DNA from: a virus
Virus record (IMG/VR): IMGVR_UViG_3300007735_000804
Location: 124,001 to 188,000 of that record
Length of the DNA: 64,000 bases
Reading direction: 5' to 3' (one strand)
Shown one piece after another: positions 1 to 24,269 of this stretch. A model generated the notes under the pieces. It ran no database searches. It had not been told where the DNA came from and worked only from the letters and a program-made list of their open reading frames with translations. The position numbers and the translations under genes are program-made. Position 1 is the first letter of the stretch, and each line of letters opens with the position of its first letter.

Positions 1-23
1 GTTTCAAGGTTGAAGCGGGTCAT
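1..23 (-). CDS. 5' end of a small unknown gene (cut by window edge)
   Basis: Only the first codons (MTRFNLE) are inside the window. The ATG at 21-23 lies 25 bases downstream of a TATACT -10 and the dyad promoter at 49-105. The neighbouring gene at 94-261 also begins MTR. Nothing can be said about function. Confidence 0.5.
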
Positions 24-48
24 GGGGTCGTCCGTGGTTGACTGAATC

Positions 49-105
49 AGTATAAGGGGTCAGGTGGGGGGTTGGTGTCCCCCGTGTGCCAGATCAGCGA
101 CCGTC
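49..105 (-). promoter_or_regulatory. Dyad promoter: TATACT -10 plus upstream palindrome
   Basis: The -10 is at 49-54 and the 18-bp dyad GCCAGATCAGCGACCGTC at 88-105, with 33 bases between them. There is no -35. The dyad covers the stop codon of the upstream gene (94-261). It would drive the gene starting at 23. Confidence 0.6.
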
Positions 106-261
106 TGTGTAGTCTCCGATGATGATGCCAGTTGCGGCATCGCGGACCTGAGCGTACCCGTACTCCTCAGAGAGGTCCAGGCAGAGCAACCAGGCACGGT
201 CCTCATCGGTGGTGGTGTTCTCCCAGGGAGCGGAGGGGCAGATCACGTTGAGGCGGGTCAT
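94..261 (-). CDS. Small unknown protein, 55 aa
   Basis: The start is placed at the ATG at 261 (MTRLNVIC...), just downstream of a canonical promoter; an upstream in-frame ATG would lie at or before the promoter. The protein is acidic with a CLDLSEEYGYA stretch. GC-rich codon use matches its neighbours up to about 1260. The stop codon sits inside the palindrome of the next promoter. Confidence 0.6.
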   Translation of the reverse strand: MTRLNVICPSAPWENTTTDEDRAWLLCLDLSEEYGYAQVRDAATGIIIGDYTDGR

Positions 262-284
262 GGTTGGTTGATTGAACTGAGAGT

Positions 285-312
285 ATTGTAGCAGGTCGGG
301 GGGAGGGGTCAA
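285..312 (-). promoter_or_regulatory. Sigma70-type promoter
   Basis: TTGACC, 16 bases, TACAAT, read on the minus strand; -10 at 285-290, -35 at 307-312. It ends 24 bases before the ATG at 261. Confidence 0.55.
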
Positions 313-485
313 CCCTCCCCATCCTCTGGGGTCAGCGCCCAGACCACGCTCTCCAGAGGGGCAGCGTAGAAGTACTCCTCCCCGTTCTGGGTGACGCGCC
401 AGACCTGGCAGGTGGCGTTGGGCTCACGGGTGATACGCTCCACCCCGTAGGGTTGCAGCATCATGATGGCTTCGGAGATCAGCAT
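309..485 (-). CDS. Small unknown protein, 58 aa
   Basis: Begins MLISEAIMML at 485, 24 bases below a TATACT -10. Contains an aromatic GEEYFYAAPL segment and an acidic tail (PEDGEG). No family recognised. The start is chosen by promoter position; the reading frame continues far upstream only as low-complexity sequence. Confidence 0.55.
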   Translation of the reverse strand: MLISEAIMMLQPYGVERITREPNATCQVWRVTQNGEEYFYAAPLESVVWALTPEDGEG

Positions 486-508
486 GGGTCGTTTGCTTTG
501 GTTCCCAT

Positions 509-566
509 AGTATAGAGGCAAAAGGGAGGGGGTGTGCCCCTCCGTTGTGCCATTATCAGAATTGGA
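509..566 (-). promoter_or_regulatory. Dyad promoter, divergent copy
   Basis: TATACT at 509-514 and a weak dyad GCCATTATCAGAATTGGA at 549-566, 34 bases apart, one longer than usual. It overlaps the 3' end of the upstream gene. Would drive 309-485. Confidence 0.4.
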
Positions 567-684
567 CCTCCTGCAGGGTCGGTTGGGGGGCAGCGTCCTC
601 AGCGGTGAGGGTCTCCAGGATCTGCAGGATCTGCTCTCCGTTGCGACCTTGACGGAGCAGGGAGAGGGCAAGGTTCAGGGTCAT
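556..684 (-). CDS. Small protein, 42 aa (MTLNLALSLLRQG type)
   Basis: Starts at 684 and reads MTLNLALSLLRQGRNGEQIL then a short acidic tail. Short proteins with an 'ALSLLxxGxxGxEIL' pattern are familiar from cyanomyoviruses (recollection, not a search). Function unknown. Helical throughout. Confidence 0.6.
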   Translation of the reverse strand: MTLNLALSLLRQGRNGEQILQILETLTAEDAAPQPTLQEVQF

Positions 685-719
685 GGTATGATGTCGGGTT
701 GGTTGGTAAGGGTCAGGGG

Positions 720-860
720 TCAGGGTGCCAGGTGGGCAGGCGACCCACAGGAGCGGTAGAAGGCGACCATGCGCTCCGCCTCCTCCAGGGTGCGGAACCA
801 TTGCGACCGCCACTCACAGGCATTGTAGGGGGTTTGGTAGCGAACTTCGTAGCGGATCAT
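720..860 (-). CDS. Small unknown protein, 46 aa
   Basis: ATG at 858-860, TGA at 720-722. Sequence starts MIRYEVRYQTPYNACEW and contains RTLEEAERMV, which reads like a small alpha/beta fold. Downstream of a TACAAT (885-890). Function unknown. Confidence 0.6.
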   Translation of the reverse strand: MIRYEVRYQTPYNACEWRSQWFRTLEEAERMVAFYRSCGSPAHLAP

Positions 861-895
861 GGCGGGTCGGTTGGTTGCTTTGGTATTGTAGCAGG

Positions 896-1060
896 TCAGG
901 CAGCGATCAGCAGGTCGTCCTCCCAGCAGATGCGATCAGAGAACAGCAGGTCCGCGATTGCCTCCAGGTCCTGGCGGTCCTGATCTGCCTTCAGGATGGC
1001 AGCACGGCACTGGGCGGCAACTTCTTCCAGGGTGTACAGGGCGTTGCAGTTGTAGCGCAT
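896..1060 (-). CDS. Small unknown protein, 54 aa
   Basis: ATG at 1058-1060, TGA at 896-898. Mostly helical (TLEEVAAQCRAAILKAD...), ending ICWEDDLLIAA. The 38 bases upstream (1063-1100) are nearly the same as those upstream of the gene at the left window edge, so the two promoters share ancestry. Confidence 0.6.
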   Translation of the reverse strand: MRYNCNALYTLEEVAAQCRAAILKADQDRQDLEAIADLLFSDRICWEDDLLIAA

Positions 1061-1085
1061 GAGGTCGTCCGTGGTTGACTTGTTC

Positions 1086-1142
1086 AGTATAAGGGGTCAG
1101 CGGGCAATCAGGTCGCCTGCAGTGTACAGTGCCTGGGCTGTC
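1086..1142 (-). promoter_or_regulatory. Dyad promoter, weak dyad
   Basis: TATACT at 1086-1091, then 33 bases, then TACAGTGCCTGGGCTGTC at 1125-1142, inside the upstream coding region. The dyad keeps only ACAG...CTGT; the spacing is what supports it. Confidence 0.35.
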
Positions 1143-1213
1143 ACATTACGGATGGGGCGAATCGGTTCCCATAGCAGGCAGAGCAGCACAGCAACAGCAG
1201 CAACGCGGAGCAT
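1097..1213 (-). CDS. Tiny membrane protein, 38 aa
   Basis: ATG at 1211-1213, TGA at 1097-1099. An N-terminal hydrophobic helix (about residues 2-14, VAAVAVLLCLL) is followed by a short positively charged and helical tail. Likely a single-pass or exported peptide; role unknown. Confidence 0.55.
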   Translation of the reverse strand: MLRVAAVAVLLCLLWEPIRPIRNVTAQALYTAGDLIAR

Positions 1214-1260
1214 GGTAGCACGGTGGAAGTCAGCAGAGCGGGAGCAGGTTAGGGATCGCA

Positions 1261-1602
1261 TCATGCAAACACAAATCCATCGGAAAATTCGTATTCGTTG
1301 AACACAGGAGAAGTTCCTGCCTGTCCGACAAACTTATGAACAAACCACTTAAAGTTGCGCTGAAATACACATTCGCCCTTGATTCCAAACTCCTGAAGTA
1401 AAGCATTCAGGCGCGATTTGGTGGTCTTAGTTTGATACCCACCATCAAAGATTTCAAGGGAGGTATCATCAATCTTTGCAATCAGATTGCTGTGAAGGTA
1501 TACAAAACTCACACCTTCAATGGTGATAACTTCGGTATTGTCACACTTCCAATCGCGGTTATCACGAATGGCAGCGCACATTTCAGATTCGATCTTACGC
1601 AT
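1261..1602 (-). CDS. Unknown protein, 113 aa
   Basis: The start is set at 1602 (MRKIESEMCAAIRDNRDW), 25 bases below the CATACT -10 at 1627-1632; the longer frame would start upstream of the promoter. Reads as an alpha/beta protein with a FVYLHSNLIAKI core. No family recognised. This is the first AT-rich gene after the GC-rich left end. Confidence 0.65.
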   Translation of the reverse strand: MRKIESEMCAAIRDNRDWKCDNTEVITIEGVSFVYLHSNLIAKIDDTSLEIFDGGYQTKTTKSRLNALLQEFGIKGECVFQRNFKWFVHKFVGQAGTSPVFNEYEFSDGFVFA

Positions 1603-1626
1603 GAGGCGTCTCTCAGTGACAAACGT

Positions 1627-1683
1627 AGTATGGCATGGATCAGGGGTCAGCACAAGGGGGTGTGTGCCACCTGTTCAACTGGC
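1627..1683 (-). promoter_or_regulatory. Dyad promoter
   Basis: CATACT -10 (1627-1632), 33-base gap, dyad GCCACCTGTTCAACTGGC at 1666-1683. The dyad overlaps the last codons and TGA of the ligase-like gene. Confidence 0.7.
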
Positions 1684-2571
1684 ACACTTAAACCGTTGGT
1701 TGTTGAAGTTAGCGTTAGAAAAGACCTCACGATTCACCAGTTTGAACATACCAAACTCATTGGTCATGACATAACCCTCAGCATCAATTCTGTTGCCGTA
1801 GAGGTATGCTGCAGGACCATTGTTGCGGCAGAGGTATAAGCAATCATCCTTGATTGACTTCACCAATGCCCACAAACGCAGCAGGTTAGCATCACAATCA
1901 AAGTCGTCTGGGTTGATCTCTTCCCCAGCACGAATGCAGGCATTGATCTGTTGTTTGATCTTTGCCGCCTCTTTTACACTCACAAACTCACAGAGAGTTG
2001 CAATTTGACGGGCAAAGTCACAGACTTCTTTTACATCAGCAAACGATTCTTGCCCGTGCTGAATGTATGCTTGGGGTTGCACAAATTTCACGGTGTCAGT
2101 ATCATTCCAAACGGAACGATCAGGCATGGCAACAGCATCACGAAGATCGCTCGCAGCATAGTAACAAGTGTGCGGAGCGATGATGATACGTTGCTCTACT
2201 ACTTCAGGGAACTGATAGGTGATAGTGTTGGGGGTGTATTCAGTAGATCCACCAAACCCGATAAAGTCACCTTGATAAATGGTATTTGTAAAAGGTAGGC
2301 AATCAAAACAAGCGTGAAGAATTTCTGCAACCTGTCCCTGATGATTCTGATCGATTTCATCATGGGATTCGTTGATCTTGATTTTAACTTTGTTGAAGAC
2401 ACTTTTGGTGCCTACGAAGAAGTTACCAGTGGCAGGATTGCGACCCCAGACAATAGCGGGAGCACCATCAATCTTTACACTCAAGGTGCCACGGGCAGTA
2501 AACCAATCCAGAACAGAAAGATCACCCGTCAGGATGGTATCTTCGGGGTGTTCGAGGTGTGTGTTTTTCAT
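1675..2571 (-). CDS. ATP-dependent ligase-like nucleotidyltransferase, 298 aa
   Basis: Residues 33-36 read KIDG in the context VKIDGAPAIVWG, which matches motif I of covalent nucleotidyltransferases (RNA/DNA ligases and capping enzymes), where the lysine takes AMP. Near the C-terminus, EGYVM (about 265) and FKLVNR (about 276) resemble motifs IV and V. An RNA or DNA end-joining or nucleotidyl-transfer role is inferred. Length fits a minimal ligase core. Start at 2571 (MKNTHLEHPED) chosen below the -10 at 2578. It could be a ligase-fold protein with another substrate. Confidence 0.65.
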   Translation of the reverse strand: MKNTHLEHPEDTILTGDLSVLDWFTARGTLSVKIDGAPAIVWGRNPATGNFFVGTKSVFNKVKIKINESHDEIDQNHQGQVAEILHACFDCLPFTNTIYQGDFIGFGGSTEYTPNTITYQFPEVVEQRIIIAPHTCYYAASDLRDAVAMPDRSVWNDTDTVKFVQPQAYIQHGQESFADVKEVCDFARQIATLCEFVSVKEAAKIKQQINACIRAGEEINPDDFDCDANLLRLWALVKSIKDDCLYLCRNNGPAAYLYGNRIDAEGYVMTNEFGMFKLVNREVFSNANFNNQRFKCAS

Positions 2572-2577
2572 GCTGTT

Positions 2578-2634
2578 AGTATGGCACGGAATCAGGGGAA
2601 TCACAAGGGGGTGTGTGCCAGTTCCTCAACTGTC
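2578..2634 (-). promoter_or_regulatory. Dyad promoter
   Basis: CATACT (2578-2583), 33 bases, dyad GCCAGTTCCTCAACTGTC (2617-2634). It drives the ligase-like gene. The dyad abuts the TGA of the upstream gene. Confidence 0.7.
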
Positions 2635-2806
2635 ACTCCTCCAGCAGTTCAGGATAGTATTCTTCAACCTCTGCAATCAGTTCCTCATCACTATACCCAG
2701 AAAGATTTTCTTCAATCTGGTCACCAACAAGTCGCATCAGATCTTTGGTGCTCATGTTATCAAGGATGCGATCAATGTAAGCATCCAGAAGTTCTTGGCG
2801 GTTCAT
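2633..2806 (-). CDS. Small acidic protein, 57 aa
   Basis: ATG at 2804-2806. MNRQELLDAYIDRILDNM then a helical acidic body with SDEELIAEVEEYYPELLEE at the C-terminus. Two or three helices; no family. Lies two bases after 2809-3078, in one operon with the genes up to about 4015. Confidence 0.65.
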   Translation of the reverse strand: MNRQELLDAYIDRILDNMSTKDLMRLVGDQIEENLSGYSDEELIAEVEEYYPELLEE

Positions 2807-2808
2807 GA

Positions 2809-3078
2809 TCAGTTTGCGTAGAGTGGGAGTTTCTTACGGAGACGGATTGCGTCTTCTAATACATCACCAATCTGTTCGTAGATGTAGTCGCAACCTCCTA
2901 CATCACAGAGTACATCTTGAGTGAAAAGTGATGGGAAATACTCCTCTTGAGTCATCTCCTCATTATACTCAAACACATCATGTTGAGTGAATACAAATGC
3001 AGCACATCCTGCGTCCTCACCTTGACTCTCAATCAGTTGGTTGATAGTGTCACGAAGTTCGGAAAGTGTGCGGTACAT
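2809..3078 (-). CDS. Unknown acidic protein, 89 aa
   Basis: MYRTLSELRDTINQLIESQG suggests an N-terminal helix; a central FTQHDVFEYNEEMTQEEYF region and three cysteines follow. Immediately precedes 2633-2806. Function not recognised. Confidence 0.65.
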   Translation of the reverse strand: MYRTLSELRDTINQLIESQGEDAGCAAFVFTQHDVFEYNEEMTQEEYFPSLFTQDVLCDVGGCDYIYEQIGDVLEDAIRLRKKLPLYAN

Positions 3079-3080
3079 AA

Positions 3081-3248
3081 TCAGTTCAGGAGTTCAGTTA
3101 CAAAATTAAGAGTTATCTTTGTTCTTGCTGATAGTTGATGAAGTTTGTCATCATCAACATTTAGGACTACATTTTCACTCTTTGGTAGAAGTTCTTGAAA
3201 GGATTTGAGTGTAGTATAAATGTAATCCAGTTTTTCGGAATTAGTCAT
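3081..3248 (-). CDS. Small unknown protein, 55 aa
   Basis: ATG at 3246-3248, TGA at 3081-3083. MTNSEKLDYIYTTLKSFQEL; mostly helical. Its start overlaps the stop of 3245-3421 (ATGA), indicating translational coupling. Confidence 0.6.
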   Translation of the reverse strand: MTNSEKLDYIYTTLKSFQELLPKSENVVLNVDDDKLHQLSARTKITLNFVTELLN

Positions 3249-3421
3249 TCATCGTCTCCAAAGTTGTTAGTGAGGAAATCTTCAAGTTCGATGAGTTTGC
3301 TGTCACTCAAAGAGACAATGTACTCATCGACAATCATAGCGAGAAGGTCATGATCTTCCCTACATTTAGCATACAAGAACTCAAAGAGTTCTGTACCTGT
3401 AGAATAGCGAAGGTCAGTCAT
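3245..3421 (-). CDS. Small unknown protein, 58 aa
   Basis: ATG at 3419-3421. MTDLRYSTGTELFEFLYA; acidic C-terminus ending NNFGDDE. Overlaps both neighbours by four bases. Confidence 0.6.
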   Translation of the reverse strand: MTDLRYSTGTELFEFLYAKCREDHDLLAMIVDEYIVSLSDSKLIELEDFLTNNFGDDE

Positions 3422-3618
3422 TTCAGAATGATACGATAATCAATGGATTTGACACACCAACCAGTAGCGGCGGTGATTTCTTCTACGAGGTCATCTTCAT
3501 CATCTGCTTCCCAAATTGTAGTACGAACATCGCAGATGAGATCTTCTTGCAAACCAGGAGAAAGTGGTTCACCATCAGACTCAAAATCAAACTCAATTTC
3601 AGTAACTTGGAATTGCAT
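3418..3618 (-). CDS. Small acidic protein, 66 aa
   Basis: MQFQVTEIEFDFESDGEPLSPGLQ... ending TGWCVKSIDYRIILK. Two beta strands flank a helix rich in Asp and Glu. This pattern is familiar in cyanomyoviruses, function unknown. Confidence 0.65.
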   Translation of the reverse strand: MQFQVTEIEFDFESDGEPLSPGLQEDLICDVRTTIWEADDEDDLVEEITAATGWCVKSIDYRIILK

Positions 3619-3743
3619 TACTTACGAAGAGGAGAATTGAAGTAACGAGTGAAGCATAGCACCAGGATGATGCCAGTGGAGATGACACCGACCAGTCCTA
3701 GAACTGTCACAGCATCACCAGTGAACGAATAGGTTTCAATCAT
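3618..3743 (-). CDS. Single-pass membrane peptide, 41 aa
   Basis: ATG at 3741-3743. Residues about 10-31 (AVTVLGLVGVISTGIILVLC) form one clear transmembrane helix, followed by a basic tail (NSPLRK). Role unknown; cyanophages commonly carry such peptides. Confidence 0.6.
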   Translation of the reverse strand: MIETYSFTGDAVTVLGLVGVISTGIILVLCFTRYFNSPLRK

Positions 3744-3744
3744 T

Positions 3745-3906
3745 TTAATAGGTCAGGAGTGCGGATACTTTATCATACAACTGGGAAACATCTACGCCCA
3801 GGATTTCACTACATTCCTCCCAATCTTCATGAAACTCGATGAGATCCAGCAGGGCACGAATCTCCGCTTGGTTTAGTTCAAGAACTTCTGCCATTTCAGT
3901 AATCAT
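3745..3906 (-). CDS. Small unknown protein, 53 aa
   Basis: MITEMAEVLELNQAEIRALL, ending SQLYDKVSALLTY; all helical and acidic. The ATG at 3906 overlaps the upstream stop by 11 bases; MAEVLEL at 3894 is an equally good start. Confidence 0.6.
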   Translation of the reverse strand: MITEMAEVLELNQAEIRALLDLIEFHEDWEECSEILGVDVSQLYDKVSALLTY

Positions 3907-4015
3907 AATCGGCGGCAAGATACTCATTCATGTTGAACTCTTCATCGTTCAACTCTGGGATATCAAAAATCTCACCAGGAGCATCTTGAATCTCTTGCCA
4001 AAGTTCATCAAACAT
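3896..4015 (-). CDS. Tiny acidic protein, 39 aa
   Basis: ATG at 4013-4015. MFDELWQEIQDAPGEIFDIP and a DEEFNMNEYLAADYDY tail; strongly acidic. First gene of the operon below the dyad promoter at 4040. Confidence 0.6.
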   Translation of the reverse strand: MFDELWQEIQDAPGEIFDIPELNDEEFNMNEYLAADYDY

Positions 4016-4039
4016 GGTGTGTCTTTCAGGGACGAATGT

Positions 4040-4096
4040 AATGTATCAGGGGAGAGGGGGCAGATCAACCCCCCTTGTGCCACCTTCTCAACTGGC
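4040..4096 (-). promoter_or_regulatory. Dyad promoter
   Basis: TACATT (4040-4045), 33 bases, dyad GCCACCTTCTCAACTGGC (4079-4096). Heads the operon 4015 to about 2633. The dyad starts six bases after the upstream stop. Confidence 0.65.
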
Positions 4097-4101
4097 ACAC
4101 A

Positions 4102-4260
4102 TTAAATTACAGAAACGTTAACCTCTTTAATATTCAAACCCATTAATTGGTTTGTAACACGATTGCAGATCACTTCGGTAGGGTTCTTTAACTTCGAACG
4201 CTCATACCAAATTGTACAGCAACCGTCATAAGTTTCGACACGAATTCGAATGTCTTTCAT
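4102..4260 (-). CDS. Small unknown protein, 52 aa
   Basis: ATG at 4258-4260, TAA at 4102-4104. MKDIRIRVETYDGCCTIWYE, then KEVNVSVI; a predominantly beta protein. 24 bases below its own dyad promoter. Confidence 0.6.
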   Translation of the reverse strand: MKDIRIRVETYDGCCTIWYERSKLKNPTEVICNRVTNQLMGLNIKEVNVSVI

Positions 4261-4283
4261 CGATCAATTGCGACGACTTGAGT

Positions 4284-4340
4284 AACATAACCCAGCACGT
4301 GGCAGAACGCAAGGGGGTGTGTGCCAGTTGATCAACCGTC
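4284..4340 (-). promoter_or_regulatory. Dyad promoter
   Basis: TATGTT (4284-4289), 33 bases, dyad GCCAGTTGATCAACCGTC (4323-4340). Drives 4102-4260. A further dyad-like sequence without a clear -10 for the minus strand lies at 4401-4418. Confidence 0.6.
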
Positions 4341-4343
4341 CTC

Positions 4344-4398
4344 ATTCTCAATAAGATCTTGTTATTGAGAATCAATAAGGACTAGTAATTGAGAATAA
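4344..4398. repeat. Cluster of ATTGAGAAT boxes (left copy)
   Basis: ATTCTCAATAA (4344-4354) and TTATTGAGAATCAATAA (4362-4378, a 7-3-7 palindrome) and AATTGAGAATAA (4387-4398). The same core recurs at 5076-5128. Probably protein-binding sites; the palindrome looks somewhat like Fur boxes, which is only a resemblance. Confidence 0.55.
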
Positions 4399-4421
4399 GA
4401 TCCAATATTTAAACTGGCACA

Positions 4422-4574: not shown

Positions 4575-4583
4575 AAGATCTAG

Positions 4584-4914: not shown

Positions 4915-5075
4915 TTTTGTGTGGGTCTCGTGGCATTTTCGCGGGCGGCGGACTTGACAAACTGCGCGTCTTATGATACGCTCGCTAAACTCACAAGTCT
5001 TGGAAGCATTTATAAGGTATTAAACATAAGAACTGGAGAGATTTATAAGATATTAAACGCAAAACTTAACACCTT

Positions 5076-5128: not shown

Positions 5129-5188
5129 GTTACAACAAACACAAATATATTTAAAAATACCTTTTTTAATTAAATTTAAGTTAAAATC

Positions 5189-6887: not shown

Positions 6888-7150
6888 CAGCAGGCACCAT
6901 AGAAAGGGTTACCAGTTTGAGGCAGATCCTGATTGTCACCCGTGATGATGTAATCATATGCCAGGCGCTCACGAATTGCAACTGCCTTCTCCACACGATT
7001 CAGAAACTTCTTGGAGATTTGGTCAATACCCTTCCAGGACAGAATTTGCATACACCATTCTTCTGAAATGTCACCATAAGGAGTGGCAACAGGATAGAAA
7101 CCAACCAGCATCGTGCCGTCTTTGGACTGGAGGGTAGGGAAGTCAGGCAT
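6887..7150 (-). CDS. Unknown protein, 87 aa
   Basis: Start at 7150 (MPDFPTLQSKDG), 24 bases below the TATAAT. Contains FYPVATPYGDISEEWCMQIL and a lysine-rich helix. No family recognised. Confidence 0.65.
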   Translation of the reverse strand: MPDFPTLQSKDGTMLVGFYPVATPYGDISEEWCMQILSWKGIDQISKKFLNRVEKAVAIRERLAYDYIITGDNQDLPQTGNPFYGAC

Positions 7151-7174
7151 TGGGTGTCTCTCGATTACCTTTGT

Positions 7175-7230
7175 ATTATAGGGCATCCAGAATGATCTGG
7201 AGTGCCCTGTGTGCCAGTTCCTCAAGTGGT
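7175..7230 (-). promoter_or_regulatory. Dyad promoter with hairpin in the spacer
   Basis: TATAAT (7175-7180), 32 bases, dyad GCCAGTTCCTCAAGTGGT (7213-7230) that covers the upstream stop codon. The spacer folds as GGGCATCCAGA...TCTGGAGTGCCC. Confidence 0.7.
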
Positions 7231-7434
7231 CGGCATCACCAGTTCAGCAACACGATCTTCACCAGGAAGACCCTCAAGAAGATCATACATCCGTTGGAAC
7301 TTGACACCAAGATTCATATAGTATGCTGCAAGTTGAGGATCTTCCTTGATATGATAAGCAGCATCTTCATTCACCTCAAGACAAGCAATGATGTCCAGAA
7401 GTTCGCCAGAAGTGAAGGTGATGGGGTTTTTCAT
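7222..7434 (-). CDS. Small unknown protein, 70 aa
   Basis: MKNPITFTSGELLDIIACLE, then helices to VAELVMPTT. No function recognised. Monocistronic between two dyad promoters. Confidence 0.65.
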   Translation of the reverse strand: MKNPITFTSGELLDIIACLEVNEDAAYHIKEDPQLAAYYMNLGVKFQRMYDLLEGLPGEDRVAELVMPTT

Positions 7435-7457
7435 CGTGTTCCCTTGATTACCTCTGT

Positions 7458-7513
7458 ATTATAGGTCAGAAGGATGGCACCACATCGTTGCGTAGACCAG
7501 TTTCCGAACTGTC
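7458..7513 (-). promoter_or_regulatory. Dyad promoter
   Basis: TATAAT (7458-7463), 32 bases, dyad ACCAGTTTCCGAACTGTC (7496-7513), lying inside the 3' end of 7466-7669. Drives 7222-7434. Confidence 0.7.
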
Positions 7514-7975: not shown

Positions 7976-8165
7976 TTGCAATTTGATTGAGAACGTTACG
8001 GGCAAAAGTCATAAAGGCATAGGGAGACACACCATTGTGCTCATAGAAGTCCAGCATATCAGATTGATTGTAAGTATTCACAATCAGCAAGCAGGCATCA
8101 TAGAGTGCTGCCTGGTGCTCTTCCTTGGATTGGAAAGAAACTGCACTGTAAGATGGTAGAGTCAC
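7968..8165 (-). CDS. Small unknown protein, 65 aa
   Basis: MTLPSYSAVSFQSKEEHQAA, helical, ending FARNVLNQIANG. First gene of a three- or four-gene operon below the dyad promoter at 8193. Confidence 0.6.
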   Translation of the reverse strand: MTLPSYSAVSFQSKEEHQAALYDACLLIVNTYNQSDMLDFYEHNGVSPYAFMTFARNVLNQIANG

Positions 8166-8192
8166 GGGTTCCGTTCCCTTGATTACCTTTGT

Positions 8193-8248
8193 ATTATACA
8201 GTCCTCATGAGGCGATTCGGGAAGTAATATGACACTTGCTCAACTGGC
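8193..8248 (-). promoter_or_regulatory. Dyad promoter
   Basis: TATAAT (8193-8198), 32 bases, dyad GACACTTGCTCAACTGGC (8231-8248) inside the coding sequence of 8194-8706. Confidence 0.7.
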
Positions 8249-8729: not shown

Positions 8730-8785
8730 ATTATAGCGCAGAACAGAGGCGATTGCCAAAGAACTGTGCTACTTGTGGAACTGTC
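8730..8785 (-). promoter_or_regulatory. Dyad promoter inside the SprT-like gene
   Basis: TATAAT (8730-8735), 32 bases, dyad GCTACTTGTGGAACTGTC (8768-8785). I found this dyad by stepping 32 bases from the -10, so it acts as an internal test of the spacing rule. Confidence 0.7.
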
Positions 8786-9640: not shown

Positions 9641-9865
9641 TCAGCGAGCAGTAATGTTCAGAGTCTCCATCAGCATCATAGCAAGTTCGATCTGATTATC
9701 TTCATCAACCAGAGGAATGTTGGCATCTACAAACTCACTTGAAAGTTCCTGCAAGAGATCGGTCATTCGCGGATCGGCATACACAAAGTCAGCAAACTCA
9801 TCCTTAAAACCATCACGCAGCAGTTTGAGAGACTTGGTAACAGTCAGTTGTTTGGTGGTGTCCAT
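9641..9865 (-). CDS. Small acidic protein, 74 aa
   Basis: Start MDTTKQLTVTKSLKLL at 9865, below the TATAAT at 9890. Helical, acidic, ends MMLMETLNITAR. No family recognised. Confidence 0.65.
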   Translation of the reverse strand: MDTTKQLTVTKSLKLLRDGFKDEFADFVYADPRMTDLLQELSSEFVDANIPLVDEDNQIELAMMLMETLNITAR

Positions 9866-9889
9866 GGCGGGTGTGTTGAACATGATGTT

Positions 9890-9945
9890 ATTATAGGGCA
9901 TCTGGGGGTATTTAAGCGCCCCCATGTGCCAGTTGTTGAAGTGGA
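9890..9945 (-). promoter_or_regulatory. Dyad promoter with hairpin in the spacer
   Basis: TATAAT (9890-9895), 32 bases, dyad GCCAGTTGTTGAAGTGGA (9928-9945). The spacer holds a GGGGG/CCCCC hairpin. Drives 9641-9865. Confidence 0.7.
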
Positions 9946-10422: not shown

Positions 10423-10479
10423 ATTATAGCGGCACCTAGGCACCGCTGGGAGGGTCAGTATGCCAGTTCAGAATCTGGC
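10423..10479 (-). promoter_or_regulatory. Dyad promoter with perfect 18-bp hairpin in the spacer
   Basis: TATAAT (10423-10428), 33 bases, dyad GCCAGTTCAGAATCTGGC (10462-10479). The spacer begins with the perfect palindrome GCGGCACCTAGGCACCGC (10429-10446). Drives 9946-10401. Confidence 0.7.
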
Positions 10480-11047: not shown

Positions 11048-11824
11048 TTAGTATAATACCTTCAGCAGCGGATTCTGGTGGTCTTGTGCCACCTCTTCAA
11101 CTGGCACAGCATTGAGGCGCTGTTGAGCAGTCAAAAAGTATTCTTCCTCACGCTCAATACCGATAAAGTTTCTATTTTCTAATTTAGATGCAATTCCAGT
11201 GGTGCCAGCACCCATACATGGGTCAAGCACCAGATCGCCCTCATTCGAGAATGTTCTAATCAACCAGCGATAAAGATCAACGGGTTTCTGTGTAGGATGG
11301 TGCTTACCTTCACCCTCCGCAGTCTTAAAATAGATAACGCTGCGAGGATACCTCAACCCACTGTCATTCTTAACATGAACTGCCTTTGTTTGCACACCAT
11401 ATGCTTCAGTGTCTCTTACAGCAGTTCCCTTATCATAAGGAGTTCCTTGTGTCATTTGAGGATTATATGTGGGTTGTTTCTTATAAAACACCACAATATC
11501 TTCATGAGCACGAAGAGGTTGCTTTTTGGCATTCAGATAACCTGTTGCTTTTGATTTCTCCCACACCATTGTGTACTTGAAGTCTTTATAATTTGAAGCA
11601 ATCAGAACACTTGTAAATGGTTGTGCTGCTGTTGAAATGATGGGGCAAGTTGGTTTACAAATATAATCCACAAGTTCCCAAAATCGCGGGTAATCAATGA
11701 TTGTGTCCCATTCATTTCTTTTATTCAGAGTTCCATAAGGAAAATCTGTCAATAACAAATCAATGCTCTGGGATGCAAGATTACCCAGAACATCAAACAT
11801 ATCTCTATTGTATAACTGACTCAT
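11048..11824 (-). CDS. Adenine/cytosine-N4 DNA methyltransferase (beta-type order), 258 aa
   Basis: Catalytic motif IV appears as TDFPYG at residues 26-31 (DPPY type), and the SAM-binding motif I as DPCMGAGTTG at about 201-210, followed by NRNFIGIE. Motif IV before motif I is the beta-class order of N6-adenine or N4-cytosine methyltransferases. LRAHEDIVVFYKKQPTYNPQ and HPTQKP are typical of this family. Start MSQLYNRDM at 11824 overlaps the endonuclease stop by four bases, so the two are one operon. Likely protects the endonuclease's site. Confidence 0.85.
   Translation of the reverse strand: MSQLYNRDMFDVLGNLASQSIDLLLTDFPYGTLNKRNEWDTIIDYPRFWELVDYICKPTCPIISTAAQPFTSVLIASNYKDFKYTMVWEKSKATGYLNAKKQPLRAHEDIVVFYKKQPTYNPQMTQGTPYDKGTAVRDTEAYGVQTKAVHVKNDSGLRYPRSVIYFKTAEGEGKHHPTQKPVDLYRWLIRTFSNEGDLVLDPCMGAGTTGIASKLENRNFIGIEREEEYFLTAQQRLNAVPVEEVAQDHQNPLLKVLY
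11050..11105 (-). promoter_or_regulatory. Dyad promoter
   Basis: TATACT (11050-11055), 32 bases, dyad GCCACCTCTTCAACTGGC (11088-11105). It is inside the 3' end of the methyltransferase gene and drives 10614-11024. Confidence 0.7.
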
Positions 11825-12399
11825 TGATTCAACCACTCTACAAATTTGTTCACTTCTTCAACATCAAGTTGAAAATCAGCATTATACTGCTCCATGTAAA
11901 TTGCACGTTGGGCATTACGCTTTTTATGCTGATTGATAATGAATACTTTAACTTCTTTACCAGTCATTTTCTTAAAATATGCGAGATAATAATTAAAAGA
12001 ATCTTGTGATACACATTCTTGACCAGCAAGAATTGCATACTCTACACCATCAGGCACATCAGGCGATGCATCCAATTCAATAAAATCTAACACTGCACGT
12101 TTAAGATAGCAAGCATCCAAATAGCATTTGGATTCTACTGCTTTAACCATCACACCATCACGGTAGATATGCTTATCAACCTGCAAATTCTTCAACGAAA
12201 CTCCATCAATCTCTTCTGTTCTCTTATAATCATTCTTCTTTGCTTTTAGACTAATGTTGGTACAAATGCGTTGAATCAAATTTTCAAAAATTACACCAGA
12301 TCCATTTCTTGCTTTGCCACCGCCACCAATTAAATGAAGACGTGGAAGATCTTTTATCTCTTGATTATAAGTTTCAATGATAGTGTCAAGATTAGACAT
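11821..12399 (-). CDS. Putative type II restriction endonuclease, 192 aa
   Basis: A PD-(D/E)XK-like active site is visible: Asp75 in LQVDKHIYR and Glu89-x-Lys91 in AVESKCYLD. The N-terminal ARNGSGVIFENLI helix also resembles restriction enzymes. It is coupled by ATGA overlap to a DNA methyltransferase and lies next to a second methyltransferase, which supports a restriction-modification role. Recognition site unknown. It could instead be another nuclease of the fold that attacks host DNA. It has its own dyad promoter. Confidence 0.65.
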   Translation of the reverse strand: MSNLDTIIETYNQEIKDLPRLHLIGGGGKARNGSGVIFENLIQRICTNISLKAKKNDYKRTEEIDGVSLKNLQVDKHIYRDGVMVKAVESKCYLDACYLKRAVLDFIELDASPDVPDGVEYAILAGQECVSQDSFNYYLAYFKKMTGKEVKVFIINQHKKRNAQRAIYMEQYNADFQLDVEEVNKFVEWLNQ

Positions 12400-12422: not shown

Positions 12423-12478
12423 ACTATAGGGTAAAATGAGGAAGAACAGGGAATAAAGTGGTCAGTTGTCACACTGTC
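12423..12478 (-). promoter_or_regulatory. Dyad promoter of the endonuclease-methyltransferase operon
   Basis: TATAGT (12423-12428), 32 bases, dyad GTCAGTTGTCACACTGTC (12461-12478). The dyad was predicted from the spacing and then found. It overlaps the stop of the upstream methyltransferase fragment. Confidence 0.65.
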
Positions 12479-19901: not shown

Positions 19902-20227
19902 TCTTCATTCTCCCAAAATGCTTTCCATTCCAATTTATCCACATCAGTCATTTCTACAACCTCAAATCCACTTACATCTTCTTGAGGTAGTGAAAGACCA
20001 AAATGTTTGATAATTAAATCTGTGGGATCGTTCACCAACCAATCTCCAAAATCTTCTGGATTATTCAGTTCATCGTGTTCGTGAGCATAAGGATTGAACT
20101 TCACACAGAAAGTCACCTTATAACCAACAGCACATTCTTTTGATTGTGTTAGAAACTCTTTTCTTTCTTCAATTTGTTTTTCAAGTACTTGAAGTTCTTC
20201 ATAAGAAAGTTTAGAAAGGTCGGTCAT
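19898..20227 (-). CDS. Unknown protein, 109 aa
   Basis: MTDLSKLSYEELQVLEKQIE opens with a helix, then a beta-rich part (AVGYKVTFCVKFNPYAHEHD). C-terminus VDKLEWKAFWENEE. Confidence 0.6.
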   Translation of the reverse strand: MTDLSKLSYEELQVLEKQIEERKEFLTQSKECAVGYKVTFCVKFNPYAHEHDELNNPEDFGDWLVNDPTDLIIKHFGLSLPQEDVSGFEVVEMTDVDKLEWKAFWENEE

Positions 20228-20400
20228 TCCTCATCCTCTTCATAAGGGAACATTTCATCATACTCCTCATCAGTAAGAGTAAGATACTGAACATTAGCAT
20301 TCTTGTGCTCTTCAGCATACACTAACTGGTAGTGTGCGAAAGAAGAAGGGTCAGTGCTAGCAAACTCTAGCAGACCATCAACAAAACAAAGGTAGTTCAT
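20224..20400 (-). CDS. Small acidic protein, 58 aa
   Basis: Start MNYLCFVDGLLEFASTDPSS at 20400, overlapping the upstream stop by four bases. Ends in an acidic run, DEEYDEMFPYEEDEE. Confidence 0.6.
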   Translation of the reverse strand: MNYLCFVDGLLEFASTDPSSFAHYQLVYAEEHKNANVQYLTLTDEEYDEMFPYEEDEE

Positions 20401-20657
20401 TCTACAATCAAACAATAACGACACTGGAAAGCAAAAGCATCCTTTTCGTGAGTAAATTTCTCCCCATTTAGTTCCCAAGAATACAGAACTTCAATCCAAG
20501 GCTTTGTGTCTCCATAAGAATTGAGACCTTCAACAGTCACAAAACCTTTGGAACCATCTGCCCGTGCCCAACGAGAACCAATTTGGATTTCGTGTGCCTT
20601 AAAGAAATGACGAACGATTGCTTTGCGTCCGTCTATGATTTCAGTTTCGTAGTCCAT
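20397..20657 (-). CDS. Unknown protein, 86 aa
   Basis: MDYETEIIDGRKAIVRHFFK; beta-rich with IGSRWARADGSKGFVTVEGL, resembling a small barrel. First gene of the run 20657 to 13782, directly below a dyad promoter. Confidence 0.65.
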   Translation of the reverse strand: MDYETEIIDGRKAIVRHFFKAHEIQIGSRWARADGSKGFVTVEGLNSYGDTKPWIEVLYSWELNGEKFTHEKDAFAFQCRYCLIVE

Positions 20658-20679
20658 CGGTTTGGTTGCTTATGAGAGT

Positions 20680-20736
20680 ATCATACCAAAAAGGGCACCT
20701 GAAATCAAGTGCCCTTGTTCCAGTTTGAGAAGTGTC
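20680..20736 (-). promoter_or_regulatory. Dyad promoter of the long small-gene operon
   Basis: TATGAT (20680-20685), 33 bases, dyad TCCAGTTTGAGAAGTGTC (20719-20736). The dyad begins right after the upstream stop codon. No other promoter of this class is visible before CP12. Confidence 0.7.
20687..20716 (-). terminator. Rho-independent terminator
   Basis: On the minus strand AAGGGCAC, a ten-base loop, GTGCCCTT followed by TTT. It ends the transcript of 20737-20937 and sits inside the spacer of the next dyad promoter. Confidence 0.75.
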
Positions 20737-20937
20737 CTAGAGAACTTCCCACTCCGTTTCCCAGTGACAATCGTTGCTTACATTCACCCAAAAGAAGTAT
20801 TTCTGGTTCTCTGATGCGAGAAACAGCATACCATCACCCTTATCCTGCTCAACAATACAGACAGGATTTCCTCCCATCATGTTAGCAAGACGATTCTTTG
20901 CTTTACTGCTCTTCGGTTTTACAGTCACTCTTCGCAT
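20737..20937 (-). CDS. Small basic protein, 66 aa
   Basis: MRRVTVKPKSSKAKNRLANM, basic N-terminus, then a beta-rich core (MLFLASENQKYFFWVNV). Overlaps 20925-21329. Confidence 0.6.
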   Translation of the reverse strand: MRRVTVKPKSSKAKNRLANMMGGNPVCIVEQDKGDGMLFLASENQKYFFWVNVSNDCHWETEWEVL

Positions 20938-21329
20938 TGTTCTTCCTCATCAGACAAGACAGTTCCCATAGGACCTTTTTTAAGACGTGCCCACTCTTCT
21001 TCTGCCTGTTGCATATCATCAAACTTCTTCCTCAGGTCTTCACCCAAAGTCAGGTCAAACTCATCAGCAACCTTACGCATATCTTCTTCTTTGCGGTGTT
21101 CACCGAATGCGAGACCACAAGCACCTTTCATAATGTTGATGTCATCGTGACCCATTGCACGGGCAACGGTTGCGAAAAAGTTAAACAGTTGATAAGTGTT
21201 AAGGTCTTCAGCAGGAATTTCAAAAGTATAATGCTCTTCGGGGAGCATCATATCATCAAAACCACTGCTGTAATGGGTGGAGGTCCATTCAGTATCAAAA
21301 GAGACTTTGAGGCGAGCTTTGTAGGTCAT
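20925..21329 (-). CDS. Unknown protein, 134 aa
   Basis: Start MTYKARLKVSFDTEW at 21329, 21 bases below the TATAAT. Contains EEHYTFEIPAEDLNTYQLFN and an acidic C-terminus ending DEEEQCEE. Function unknown. Confidence 0.65.
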   Translation of the reverse strand: MTYKARLKVSFDTEWTSTHYSSGFDDMMLPEEHYTFEIPAEDLNTYQLFNFFATVARAMGHDDINIMKGACGLAFGEHRKEEDMRKVADEFDLTLGEDLRKKFDDMQQAEEEWARLKKGPMGTVLSDEEEQCEE

Positions 21330-21350
21330 TGGTCTGTTGTGTATGAATGT

Positions 21351-21406
21351 ATTATAGAGTATCAGGAGTCTTCTGTGGAGTCTGCTGTGCCAGTTCGTCA
21401 AGTGTC
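21351..21406 (-). promoter_or_regulatory. Dyad promoter
   Basis: TATAAT (21351-21356), 32 bases, dyad GCCAGTTCGTCAAGTGTC (21389-21406). The dyad covers the upstream stop codon. Confidence 0.7.
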
Positions 21407-21760
21407 CTCGTCGGGCAGTTCTTCATTCAAATCTACATCAATTCCATCAGTGAGTTCTTTCATTCGTTCAAAGAAATCTTCATCTAATGGAATCAGTTTC
21501 TCTTCTCCACGTTCAATACGATCACACATTTCCATCAGATACTCAAGAAACTCTTTTGGATAAGTTTCATCTAGGTTGATAGAAGTCCAGAACCATTGAT
21601 AACACTCTTTGTAAGGATCGTCATCTGATAGTAGAGCATAATTCTCATAGTTTCCACTGATGAGATCTCTCCACATCTTAAAGTTATTCCAGATCTCTCT
21701 CCAACCAGTTTGGAAGCAGTGACCGATGTAATACTCAAACCAGTTCATCTTTTTGGACAT
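21398..21760 (-). CDS. Unknown acidic protein, 120 aa
   Basis: Start MSKKMNWFEYYIGHCFQTGW at 21760 (MNWFEYY at 21748 also possible). Aromatic N-terminal half, acidic C-terminus (NEELPDEDT). No family recognised. Confidence 0.6.
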   Translation of the reverse strand: MSKKMNWFEYYIGHCFQTGWREIWNNFKMWRDLISGNYENYALLSDDDPYKECYQWFWTSINLDETYPKEFLEYLMEMCDRIERGEEKLIPLDEDFFERMKELTDGIDVDLNEELPDEDT

Positions 21761-22016
21761 AGAACAATTCATCCCGCCAGTTACGACCAGCAATATCAAA
21801 ACTAAATCCTAACTTACCAAGAGTGAATAGAAATGAGAACAATCTACCATATCCCATACAGATTTGTAGATAAGGCCATTCTATCCAGTTACCATATTCA
21901 CCAATATCAAATTCAACTTGAAGAAGTGAATATCGTTCTGTAAGAAATAGTGCTAGGTAAAACTCTTTACCATAATCTTCTCTGATACCCCATTTTGCGA
22001 CTTGAAACAGTTTCAT
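21735..22016 (-). CDS. Unknown protein, 93 aa
   Basis: MKLFQVAKWGIREDYGKEFY, then SLLQVEFDIGEYGNWIEWPY and a hydrophobic FSFLFTLGKLGFSF segment. May associate with membrane. Role unknown. Confidence 0.6.
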   Translation of the reverse strand: MKLFQVAKWGIREDYGKEFYLALFLTERYSLLQVEFDIGEYGNWIEWPYLQICMGYGRLFSFLFTLGKLGFSFDIAGRNWRDELFYVQKDELV

Positions 22017-22195
22017 ACCATTTTCCTCTTATCAGTATCAAAGATTGTCCATTTTGCTATTTTAAGGCACATTAGCAGAGTTTGGTGTTCACGCTGATAC
22101 AAGTTCCAGTCACCTTTACATTTAGCAGCGTGTCTTCTACGATAGGCACAAGTCCATACGTTCTTGTATATTTGTGCCTTTTCGGTAAGTGTCAT
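22013..22195 (-). CDS. Small basic protein, 60 aa
   Basis: MTLTEKAQIYKNVWTCAYRR, all helical and positively charged (RRRHAAKCKGDW). ATGA overlaps with neighbours. Confidence 0.6.
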   Translation of the reverse strand: MTLTEKAQIYKNVWTCAYRRRHAAKCKGDWNLYQREHQTLLMCLKIAKWTIFDTDKRKMV

Positions 22196-22425
22196 TTATT
22201 TTTAAACTCTTCTTGAAGTTCTTTGGCAATTTTATATGCTCTTCTCCACATCAAATATTTTACCACTGGATTTGTTGGATTGTGAAGTATCCACCATTTA
22301 GTCTTCTCATATTGAACTCTTGCCAGTTGAGTCAGCATATAGAATGCCCTCGCTACGGATTGATCGGTAACAATCAAATACCCAACACAAAAGAATATAA
22401 TAAAGTAAATGTATGAAGCACTCAT
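22192..22425 (-). CDS. Single-pass membrane protein, 77 aa
   Basis: Start MSASYIYFIIFFCVGYLIVT at 22425 is an N-terminal membrane helix; the remainder is a basic helix (MWRRAYKIAKELQEEFKNK). Confidence 0.6.
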   Translation of the reverse strand: MSASYIYFIIFFCVGYLIVTDQSVARAFYMLTQLARVQYEKTKWWILHNPTNPVVKYLMWRRAYKIAKELQEEFKNK

Positions 22426-22592
22426 TTTGTATCTTTTTTCACAACTACTGGGCAAGTAGGAATTGATTTTTGTATCTCTTCAATTATTTCGTTTTTAATT
22501 TGTCTAGGTAAACCCTCTTTTGCTTCAATACGATTAATAACGCTAACAGCCTGACTGCAGGTAATAATCGTCGTAAGAAATAGAGCAGTCAT
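22422..22592 (-). CDS. Small exported or membrane protein, 56 aa
   Basis: ATG at 22590-22592. MTALFLTTIITCSQAVSVIN reads like a short signal sequence, perhaps with a lipobox-like cysteine. Ends SIPTCPVVVKKDTK. A late-type TATAAATA lies 23 bases upstream. Confidence 0.6.
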   Translation of the reverse strand: MTALFLTTIITCSQAVSVINRIEAKEGLPRQIKNEIIEEIQKSIPTCPVVVKKDTK

Positions 22593-22615
22593 AGCTCTCT
22601 CCTATGCTTGAAGAA

Positions 22616-22623
22616 TATTTATA
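22616..22623 (-). promoter_or_regulatory. Late-type promoter (TATAAATA)
   Basis: Exact T4 late consensus on the minus strand, 23 bases before the gene at 22592; overlaps the upstream stop codon. Confidence 0.5.
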
Positions 22624-22846
22624 GAAACTTTTCTAAAGTTGCAGTATTCTTTTTAGATATCTTAATCTGTTTTTTAATGTAAGAAAGTGCAGTATCATAG
22701 GTATTGGCAGTATGCACTTGTTGTCCGTTATGAATGATTATAAACTTTTTATCATACGGAACTGCTGCCCATATACCATCTTTGGTCACATAACCATTTG
22801 GATCTCCTGGTTTAGGATTCAGGAGACCTTCATTTTGAATGTTCAT
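22619..22846 (-). CDS. Unknown protein, 75 aa
   Basis: Start MNIQNEGLLNPKPGDPNGYV at 22846, overlapping the previous stop. Beta-rich N-terminal half (GIWAAVPYDKKFIIIHNGQQ), then a basic helix. Confidence 0.6.
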   Translation of the reverse strand: MNIQNEGLLNPKPGDPNGYVTKDGIWAAVPYDKKFIIIHNGQQVHTANTYDTALSYIKKQIKISKKNTATLEKFL

Positions 22847-22983
22847 CGGGCAGCGCAAACATTTACAATACGTCCGTTAGGATTGCGAGCAAGCACAACG
22901 TCTTGTGCTTCACGGGGACTGTTAGCATGAACCTGTTCGCTTAAGCGACGGTTACCAGCGACGTAGATAACTTCGTATTTCAT
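22843..22983 (-). CDS. Small unknown protein, 46 aa
   Basis: Start MKYEVIYVAGNRRLSEQVHA at 22983, 22 bases below a TATAAT. Beta-alpha-beta layout, ending GRIVNVCAAR. The type is familiar in cyanophages; role unknown. Confidence 0.65.
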   Translation of the reverse strand: MKYEVIYVAGNRRLSEQVHANSPREAQDVVLARNPNGRIVNVCAAR

Positions 22984-23005
22984 AGCGAGAGTTGAGAACG
23001 TGAGT

Positions 23006-23034
23006 ATTATAGCAGAAAAGTCAGCGCCTGACAA
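23006..23034 (-). promoter_or_regulatory. Sigma70-type promoter
   Basis: TTGTCA (23029-23034), 17 bases, TATAAT (23006-23011). The -35 lies in the 3' end of the helicase gene. Confidence 0.65.
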
Positions 23035-24202
23035 CGCTGATAGCAGGTAAACCCTGCTGAAACACGGTGTCTACGACCGCCTGAACGCTCTTGGCGGTGC
23101 TGACCCCCACCTTATCATAGACAGGCACACAGACCAGTCCAAAGGTCTTCTGGGCGCCTCCCAGACGGATCACGCGACCGATGCTCTGAGAGATACCGAT
23201 GTAGTCCATGTTCCGCATGAACAGAACTGCTTCCAGACCAGACACATTGATGCCCTCGGACAGAATGCTGTGATGAAGAACCACAAACTTTTTGGAGGAG
23301 TCTTTGCCCCAAGCATTGAGAGTGTCAAAGAATACCTCACGGTTGACCTTTTGACCGTCAATCACAGCACCAGTCTTGGAAGTGATATACATCCAAGAAT
23401 AACCACGCTCTTTGAGGTCAGAGCAGAAGTCAGACTGTGAAATCAGATTGATGATCTGTTTGGTAGAACGAGCGCAGATTAGGATCTTATCCAGACCGTT
23501 ATCGTCAATGGTCTCCAGCAGGTTAGCAGAGTCACGATCAGCAATCATCTGCTTGTCCTGAACCATCTCAAGTTGCTTGACCACAACTTTAGGGGGCAAA
23601 ATGTAACCTTGCTCCACCAGTTCAGGAGCAGGAACATTACAAATGACGTTGCCGTAGACCTCTGGCATATTCATACCAGGTTTAGAAATGGTTGCAGAAT
23701 GCTTTGGAGTCGCAGTGAAGAAATAGCAGCGGTCAGCAGCAGAAGCGAAGTGCTCCGTAGCAGGGAAAAAGTTACGTTGGACTGAATTGTGTGCTTCATC
23801 GAAGTAAATGGTATCAACGTGAATATCTGCCTGCTGCAGACGTTGCAGGGAGTTGTAGGTAGTGAAGATCAGTTGATGTTTGTAGGCACGACGAGACCAG
23901 TTGTGAATCTCACTGGGTTTCGTGGTGCTCTGGTGATGAGTCTCACCGCTGTGAACGTGCAGCACAGCAACGTTGGTGATAAACTCAAGGTACTCGGCAG
24001 ACAACTGCTCCGCCAGGAGGATGCGAGGTGCCACCACTACGATGGTTTTAGGAGCATCAGACTGGAACTCACGCAGAGCATCAAAGATCATCGTAGGGGT
24101 CTTGCCCGCACCAGTCGGCATGATCAGCTGACCTAGTTGATGCTGTTCCATAGCATCAAGACCACGCTGCTGGTGGGGACGAAGTTCGAACACAGGTCTC
24201 AT
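23021..24202 (-). CDS. Superfamily II DNA/RNA helicase, 393 aa
   Basis: Walker A PTGAGKT at residues 29-35, DEAH at 135-138 (FDEAHN), motif III FFTATPKHS, and motif VI QSIGRVIRLG near residue 350 place it in the SF2 family with ResIII/UvsW-like helicases. ATP-driven unwinding or branch migration in phage replication and recombination is inferred. At 393 residues it is shorter than T4 UvsW (about 500) and lacks an obvious N-terminal domain, so UvsW itself is not certain. GC content is higher than in surrounding genes. It has its own dyad promoter. Confidence 0.8.
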   Translation of the reverse strand: MRPVFELRPHQQRGLDAMEQHQLGQLIMPTGAGKTPTMIFDALREFQSDAPKTIVVVAPRILLAEQLSAEYLEFITNVAVLHVHSGETHHQSTTKPSEIHNWSRRAYKHQLIFTTYNSLQRLQQADIHVDTIYFDEAHNSVQRNFFPATEHFASAADRCYFFTATPKHSATISKPGMNMPEVYGNVICNVPAPELVEQGYILPPKVVVKQLEMVQDKQMIADRDSANLLETIDDNGLDKILICARSTKQIINLISQSDFCSDLKERGYSWMYITSKTGAVIDGQKVNREVFFDTLNAWGKDSSKKFVVLHHSILSEGINVSGLEAVLFMRNMDYIGISQSIGRVIRLGGAQKTFGLVCVPVYDKVGVSTAKSVQAVVDTVFQQGLPAISVVRR

Positions 24203-24215
24203 TGCGTATGAAACT

Positions 24216-24269
24216 ATTATAGCAGAAAACCGCCCCTAGTGCGACCCAGTGGACGGTTCTTAAAGTGGC
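24216..24269 (-). promoter_or_regulatory. Dyad promoter (30-base gap)
   Basis: TATAAT (24216-24221), dyad GACGGTTCTTAAAGTGGC (24252-24269). The gap is 30 rather than 32-33, the most deviant copy. Drives the helicase. Confidence 0.5.

Follow-up and report, generated by a model that had tools for sequence, protein, structure and literature searches.

A cyanomyovirus promoter class with a 24-bp palindrome at fixed distance from the -10, probably a mimic of host yfr2 promoters

Middle promoters of phage T4, which depend on MotA and AsiA, combine a good -10 with an upstream activator box and have no -35; the MotA box lies at -30 and is read by a phage protein. In marine T4-like cyanophages, genes fall into early, middle and late classes, but middle promoters of the T4 type are missing, as are motA and/or asiA. 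Host PhoB boxes are present in the cyanophage promoters of P-SSM2 pstS and of S-PM2 DNA polymerase and uvsX (PMC10976474), and NtcA promoters have been predicted in cyanophages at 1-16 sites per genome (PMC3037559). On the host side, the GntR regulator PMM1637, described as 'common to all cyanobacteria', binds the yfr2 promoters that bear CGRE1 and mediates Yfr2 induction; in Prochlorococcus MED4, CGRE1 was reported at yfr2 promoters only (PMC6778093). PMM1637 is PlmA, which binds PII-PipX; its regulon is described as undefined, and a cell of S. elongatus contains about 400 PlmA chains (PMC6243067). Here, we analyze a 64,000-nucleotide stretch of viral DNA (hereafter, the window), corresponding to bases 124001-188000 of the 213,274-base virus record IMGVR_UViG_3300007735_000804, which is related to cyanomyoviruses, marine and freshwater. 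It contains a class of promoters in which a palindrome (dyad) precedes a TATAAT-like -10 at a nearly fixed distance, as in host yfr2 promoters. We consider it likely that these are PlmA-dependent promoters that mimic those of the host by copying the yfr2 architecture, for which we infer PlmA binding, activation and early timing.

The class was proposed in an earlier, sequence-only reading of the window. All 18 of its minus-strand dyad/-10 pairs were recovered, with position, strand and spacing as reported: 32 bp at eight sites, 33 bp at eight, 34 bp at the site at 509 and 30 bp at that at 24216, which places 17 of the 18 within 32-34 bp. The palindrome is real and its centre falls at about -53, as had been estimated, but its length is 24 bp rather than 18 bp. 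Symmetrising the 18 dyads yields the conserved element TGTGMCASTT-N4-AASTGKCACA, the centre of which is under little constraint, with position 5/14 often being a non-pairing combination. A position weight matrix built from the same dyads finds 22 dyads scoring at least 8 in window 1-24269, against a Markov mean of 3.2. Since these dyads are the training set of the matrix, the independent evidence lies in the spacing and in what follows the -10. The spacing exceeds random expectation, since window 1-24269 contains 20 such pairs at a distance of 32/33 bp against a Markov mean of 0.4 and a maximum of 2, and it does not reflect copied DNA, because the spacers are unrelated (mean pairwise identity of 31%, with a maximum of 73% for one pair). 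Downstream, an ATG of an open reading frame (ORF) of at least 39 codons lies 5-28 nt below the -10 at 17 of the 18 sites, compared with 18% of random positions; the remaining site (8193) has a GTG 28 nt below the -10 instead. The reported lack of a -35 holds overall, matches to TTGACA in the spacers averaging 3.2/6 versus 2.7 in shuffled spacers, which is not beyond chance, with the exception of the site at 8730, which has TTGGCA-N18-TATAAT. By contrast, the description of the class as phage-wide was too strong for this genome: the minus-strand sites are concentrated in genome 124.0-148.3 kb (window 1-24.3 kb), just two more good sites, 68066 and 71057, lie outside this region, and the matrix scan finds one dyad/-10 pair at 32/33 bp in the 39.7 kb of the window beyond 24269.

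A scan of bacterial genomes revealed the dyad in several cyanobacteria, where it is followed by GTGTGAGGAG or close variants. In five cyanobacterial loci, Rfam identifies the RNA directly downstream of the dyad as Cyano-1 (RF01701), which we take to be the Yfr2 family. The 110 bp upstream of 56 cyanobacterial RF01701 genes were scanned with a matrix trained only on phage sites. Scores above 5 were obtained for 39 of the 56 regions versus one of 56 control windows, and scores above 12 for 20 versus none. The dyad centre is mostly located 46-53 nt before the Rfam start, often with a TANNNT at 32-34 bp, for the most part at 32/33 bp. The matches to the phage matrix and the spacing therefore indicate that phage and host yfr2 promoters share one architecture, namely, the same palindrome at the same 32-34 bp from a TANNNT -10. 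The two differ in what they serve: in MED4, CGRE1 is reported at yfr2 promoters only, whereas the cyanophage element precedes many protein-coding genes. No RF01701 (Yfr2-like RNA) was found in the window or in two other 20-kb pieces of the phage genome.

The element is widespread among related viruses. A collection scan for the dyad plus -10 returned at least 120 stretches, and a dyad-only scan provided an unselected set of 155 non-redundant viral dyads in loci outside the former scan. Among these 155, TANNNT is found at 32/33 bp, in either direction, in 72%, versus 3-10% at most other spacings and 26% at 38/39 bp. The unselected set is the clean null, whereas the 38-41 bp spacing control is an unclean one that exposed a 43-bp variant. 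In 92 of 101 unselected-dyad loci there is an encoded protein with its best match in a cyanomyovirus, not T4. In named phages, the degenerate dyad (at most one mismatch) was counted 5 times in Syn9, 11 in S-PM2, 8 in S-SKS1, 23 in S-SRM01, 17 in S-CRM01, 11 in P-SSM2, 7 in P-HM2 and 7 in P-SSM4, versus 0-1 for the reversed pattern used as a control. It is absent from T4, HTVC008M, Ma-LMM01, P-SSP7 and Syn5, and occurs once in KVP40, versus three times in the control. The scan of related phages that had been suggested along with the proposed class gave 29 pairs at 32/33 bp in S-PM2, 26 in S-CRM01, 15 in P-HM2 and 10 in Syn9, with Markov means of 1.1-1.8 across the phages scanned; T4 has two. 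Most of the large relatives checked probably use the same promoter type. Metagenomic phages (e.g. L135, L138, L142, L134) contain a second subclass, in which the dyad is about one helical turn farther out, at 43 bp, a geometry that face-of-the-helix activation would predict. This subclass tends to carry TTGACA or TTGACT, with a match to TTGACA of at least 5/6 in five of nine distinct examples, a small sample partly from one lineage, versus 18 of 174 at 32/33 bp.

The promoters and associated genes are listed below in window coordinates; spacing is the number of bp between dyad and -10.

49-105, minus: promoter; dyad 88-105; -10 TATACT 49-54; spacing 33; ATG 23
509-566, minus: promoter; dyad 549-566; -10 TATACT 509-514; spacing 34; hairpin and T-run in spacer; ATG 485
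1086-1142, minus: promoter; dyad 1125-1142; -10 TATACT 1086-1091; spacing 33; ATG 1060
1627-1683, minus: promoter; dyad 1666-1683; -10 CATACT 1627-1632; spacing 33; ATG 1602
2578-2634, minus: promoter; dyad 2617-2634; -10 CATACT 2578-2583; spacing 33; ATG 2571 (possibly leaderless), DUF6267 gene 1675-2571
3653-3708, minus: candidate weaker promoter; dyad 3691-3708 (matrix score 16.6); TATGCT at spacing 32
4040-4096, minus: promoter; dyad 4079-4096; -10 TACATT 4040-4045; spacing 33; ATG 4015
4284-4340, minus: promoter; dyad 4323-4340; -10 TATGTT 4284-4289; spacing 33; ATG 4260
7175-7230, minus: promoter; dyad 7213-7230; -10 TATAAT 7175-7180; spacing 32; strong hairpin in spacer; ATG 7150
7458-7513, minus: promoter; dyad 7496-7513; -10 TATAAT 7458-7463; spacing 32; ATG 7434
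8193-8248, minus: promoter; dyad 8231-8248; -10 TATAAT 8193-8198; spacing 32; GTG 8165
8730-8785, minus: promoter; dyad 8768-8785; -10 TATAAT 8730-8735; spacing 32; TTGGCA 18 bp before -10; ATG 8706
9890-9945, minus: promoter; dyad 9928-9945; -10 TATAAT 9890-9895; spacing 32; ATG 9883 (possibly leaderless)
10423-10479, minus: promoter; dyad 10462-10479; -10 TATAAT 10423-10428; spacing 33; ATG 10401 (DUF7717)
11050-11105, minus: promoter; dyad 11088-11105; -10 TATACT 11050-11055; spacing 32; ATG 11024
12423-12478, minus: promoter; dyad 12461-12478; -10 TATAGT 12423-12428; spacing 32; ATG 12399, then DNA methyltransferase 11048-11836
20680-20736, minus: promoter; dyad 20719-20736; -10 TATGAT 20680-20685; spacing 33; terminator-like hairpin and T5 in spacer; ATG 20657
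21351-21406, minus: promoter; dyad 21389-21406; -10 TATAAT 21351-21356; spacing 32; ATG 21329
24216-24269, minus: promoter of the helicase gene; dyad 24252-24269; -10 TATAAT 24216-24221; spacing 30; ATG 24202
23021-24202, minus: DEAD/ResIII helicase gene; 43% identity to Syn9 gp75

Among the targets that had been named, only the helicase gene (23021-24202) was confirmed; the gene called ligase-like corresponds to Pfam DUF6267. In Syn9, a dyad/-10 pair stands directly before gp75, the helicase orthologue, and 41 of 57 distinct regions upstream of helicase orthologues score above 5, compared with three of 57 coding controls; here, the -10 is mostly at 30/31 bp from the dyad. In some of the orthologue promoters, a terminator-like stem separates the dyad from the -10. 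At window 24216, the 5' arm of such a stem appears, as read from the sequence, to overlap the right half of the dyad. Hairpins with z below -2 occur in six of the 18 window spacers, including two that also have a T-run, and not in the other spacers. These spacer hairpins, as well as the terminators at several helicase orthologue promoters, could be taken to mean that the dyads are RNA hairpins (terminators or processing sites) or PeSL-type promoter/terminator recombination cassettes, to which the -10s are adjacent through compact intergenic cassettes. We give this hardly any credence: variation in the dyads disrupts RNA pairing through G/G and C/A mismatches, and the folds of most dyads are weak, which disfavours a hairpin or terminator reading, the hairpins lie beside the dyad and not in it, and the same dyad is found at host yfr2 promoters. 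PeSLs combine a sigma-70 early promoter with a stem-loop. Some dyad promoters likewise embed a terminator hairpin in an intergenic cassette, as do the PeSL cassettes of T4-like phages; however, in the dyad class the activator site is constant and the hairpin optional.

The sequence-only reading took these promoters for an activator-dependent class without a -35, distinct from the MotA-dependent middle promoters of T4. The fixed spacing, the lack of a MotA match in the phages searched and the conservation in cyanomyoviruses and at the helicase gene all speak for this view. Each of the seven Cyanobiaceae genomes searched encodes one GntR ORF (331-489 aa), whereas no GntR (PF00392) was detected in this phage and nine other cyanomyoviruses. 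Nor were MarR or Crp-type helix-turn-helix domains found in nine phages searched, or a MotA domain (PF09114) in this phage and eight related cyanomyoviruses (T4 positive control, 3e-63). Thus, a phage-encoded activator of the GntR, MarR, Crp or MotA type was not detected in the phages searched. Nevertheless, an activator of unrecognised fold might be encoded by the phage and serve a middle class as a functional analogue of MotA, with the yfr2 likeness arising through evolved use of a shared site. T4-like phages run their middle genes by phage activators, replication/repair-type genes (helicase, methylase) are among the targets, and known domains are missing from the majority of the phage proteins here. 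Besides the absence of the above domains, the presence of the same element and spacing at yfr2 in uninfected cells, which already implies a host protein, makes this possibility an unlikely one. The case of HTVC008M is informative in the same respect, since this member of the Kyanoviridae belongs to the same family, infects a non-cyanobacterial host, SAR11, and does not have the element.

As to the host protein, known sites were rejected as candidates: the NtcA site matches the dyad neither in consensus (GTA-N8-TAC) nor in position (near -41.5), and the consensus sequences of the Pho box (CTTA-N7-CTTA) and of the CRP site do not fit it. The protein might still be a cyanobacterial factor other than PlmA, with the host-mimic model otherwise standing. 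Look-alike palindromes outside cyanobacteria would suit such a factor, and at 24 bp, with half-sites of 10 bp each, the palindrome is longer than usual for a GntR dimer. Given that the consensus is neither an NtcA nor a Pho box and that PMM1637 binds CGRE1-bearing yfr2 promoters (PMC6778093), we find this quite improbable and favour PlmA.

Several observations weigh against PlmA-dependent mimicry of yfr2. The action of PlmA at the phage sites is suggested by analogy with yfr2 promoters, and the palindrome is equated with CGRE1 from its place at these promoters rather than from the published CGRE1 consensus. The second half-site is degenerate in Prochlorococcus-type yfr2 promoters, and similar palindromes are found in Acidobacteria and others that are expected to be without PlmA. 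S-SM2 has one dyad, equal to its control (1). Finally, the phage search spanned four DNA-binding domain families, so that an activator of another type is conceivable. Regarding the non-phage palindromes, the same palindrome is present on six contigs of one Pyrinomonadaceae metagenome-assembled genome (L262, L269, L273, L279, L291, L294), and it recurs in other Acidobacteria, Ktedonobacter and cyanobacteria, in some cases with a TANNNT at 31-34 bp. Those of Acidobacteria and the like may belong to an unrelated GntR-type regulon.

In the mechanism that we propose for the PlmA-dependent promoters, the regulator would be a host protein acting as a dimer, most likely PlmA (PMM1637). It would bind the 24-bp palindrome, the centre of which is near -53, and recruit RNA polymerase of the host's sigma-70 type to a -10 that resembles TATAAT and lacks a usable -35. 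The small-gene and helicase region could then be expressed immediately, with no activator from the phage. Because PlmA pre-exists in the host cell, no such activator would be needed and early expression would be expected; activation by a host regulator would therefore point to early rather than middle timing. Expression would then depend on the inputs that control PlmA, namely PII-PipX and the nitrogen and light status. Probably, about 20 phage genes start from yfr2-like promoters, for which host PlmA is borrowed in place of an activator of the phage's own. A more tentative proposition, which we hold to be quite possible, is that the whole group of cyanomyoviruses has copied the yfr2 promoter and thereby connected a large and probably immediate-early regulon to PlmA.

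The dyad promoters resemble those of T4 middle genes in having a good -10, no -35 and an upstream activator box, but the box is here a 24-bp palindrome near -53, with no match to MotA. In the PhoB-box promoters, too, a phage promoter uses a host transcription factor, although factor and site are different and few genes, linked to phosphate stress, are concerned, versus ~10-29 dyad/-10 pairs per genome here. The predicted NtcA promoters likewise have a host nitrogen-linked regulator serving phage genes, but through a different factor and the GTA-N8-TAC site; PlmA and NtcA are linked only via PipX. Host-factor use by cyanophages is thus already known for PhoB (PMC10976474) and predicted for NtcA (PMC3037559), and what is new here is the much larger promoter set. 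A limited literature search found no link of PlmA, CGRE1 or Yfr2 promoters to cyanophage promoters, although an earlier description is possible in work on Syn9 transcription start sites (Doron 2016), CGRE1 (Lambrecht 2018) or PeSLs.

Some features of the individual loci deserve mention. The DNA methyltransferase gene (11048-11836) is likely the second gene of one unit under the promoter at 12423. At two promoters (window 1675-2634 and 9641-9945) the ATG coincides with the predicted transcription start, suggesting that these mRNAs may be leaderless. Three leaders (window 7150-7180, 7434-7463 and 8165-8198) share TATAATACARAGGTAATCRAGRGA right after the -10, and others share TTCATACGCAA. Neither these sequences nor the leader motifs CATACGCAA and GGTAATCRA show clear enrichment over chance genome-wide. 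Window 1-2000 has a GC content of 55%, versus 38% for the whole window, and contains small ORFs, each under a dyad/-10 promoter; it looks like a recently acquired gene block. Outside the window, at genome 30558-30575, a near-perfect dyad on the minus strand abuts TTGACT-N17-TATAAT, with ~27 bp from dyad to -10. This arrangement differs from the main class, and the dyad may there repress or co-activate. A wcaG RNA (RF01761, 101.9 bits) is located at genome 29652-29752 on the minus strand, less than ~1 kb from the dyad at 30558.

In one metagenomic lineage (IMG/VR 3300008113_001711 and 3300031784_003461; L213:12-385, L176:89-405, L133:779-1957), full dyads form arrays of 6-7, ~57-63 bp apart. 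Most of these dyads precede a word similar to TTGACA, but no -10 is evident at 32/33 bp, and the arrays possibly represent a decoy or a composite regulatory array. Arrays of this kind (6-7 dyads, ~58 bp) would fit the view that the dyad is a repressor site, or a decoy that titrates PlmA from host yfr2, with promoter activity independent of it. As an account of the class, this is very unlikely, given that most sites have a -10 and a gene start at fixed distance, with no -35, and that PMM1637 mediates Yfr2 induction (PMC6778093).

The promoter class, with its defined site, spacing and proposed host regulator, offers a specific answer to how cyanophage genes are switched on, and the promoter model can be used to flag gene starts where cyanophage genomes have small-gene regions. 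If the dependence on PlmA is true, the phage promoters would provide a large set of candidate targets for a protein whose regulon is undefined (PMC6243067), and the reported presence of PlmA in all cyanobacteria would account for the function of a single promoter in many hosts. With a PlmA regulon of this kind across cyanomyoviruses, host takeover would be placed under PII-PipX-PlmA nitrogen/light signalling. Each incoming genome copy would bring tens of sites, which could draw scarce PlmA away from host yfr2, and the bare-dyad arrays of one lineage could be decoys titrating this regulator.

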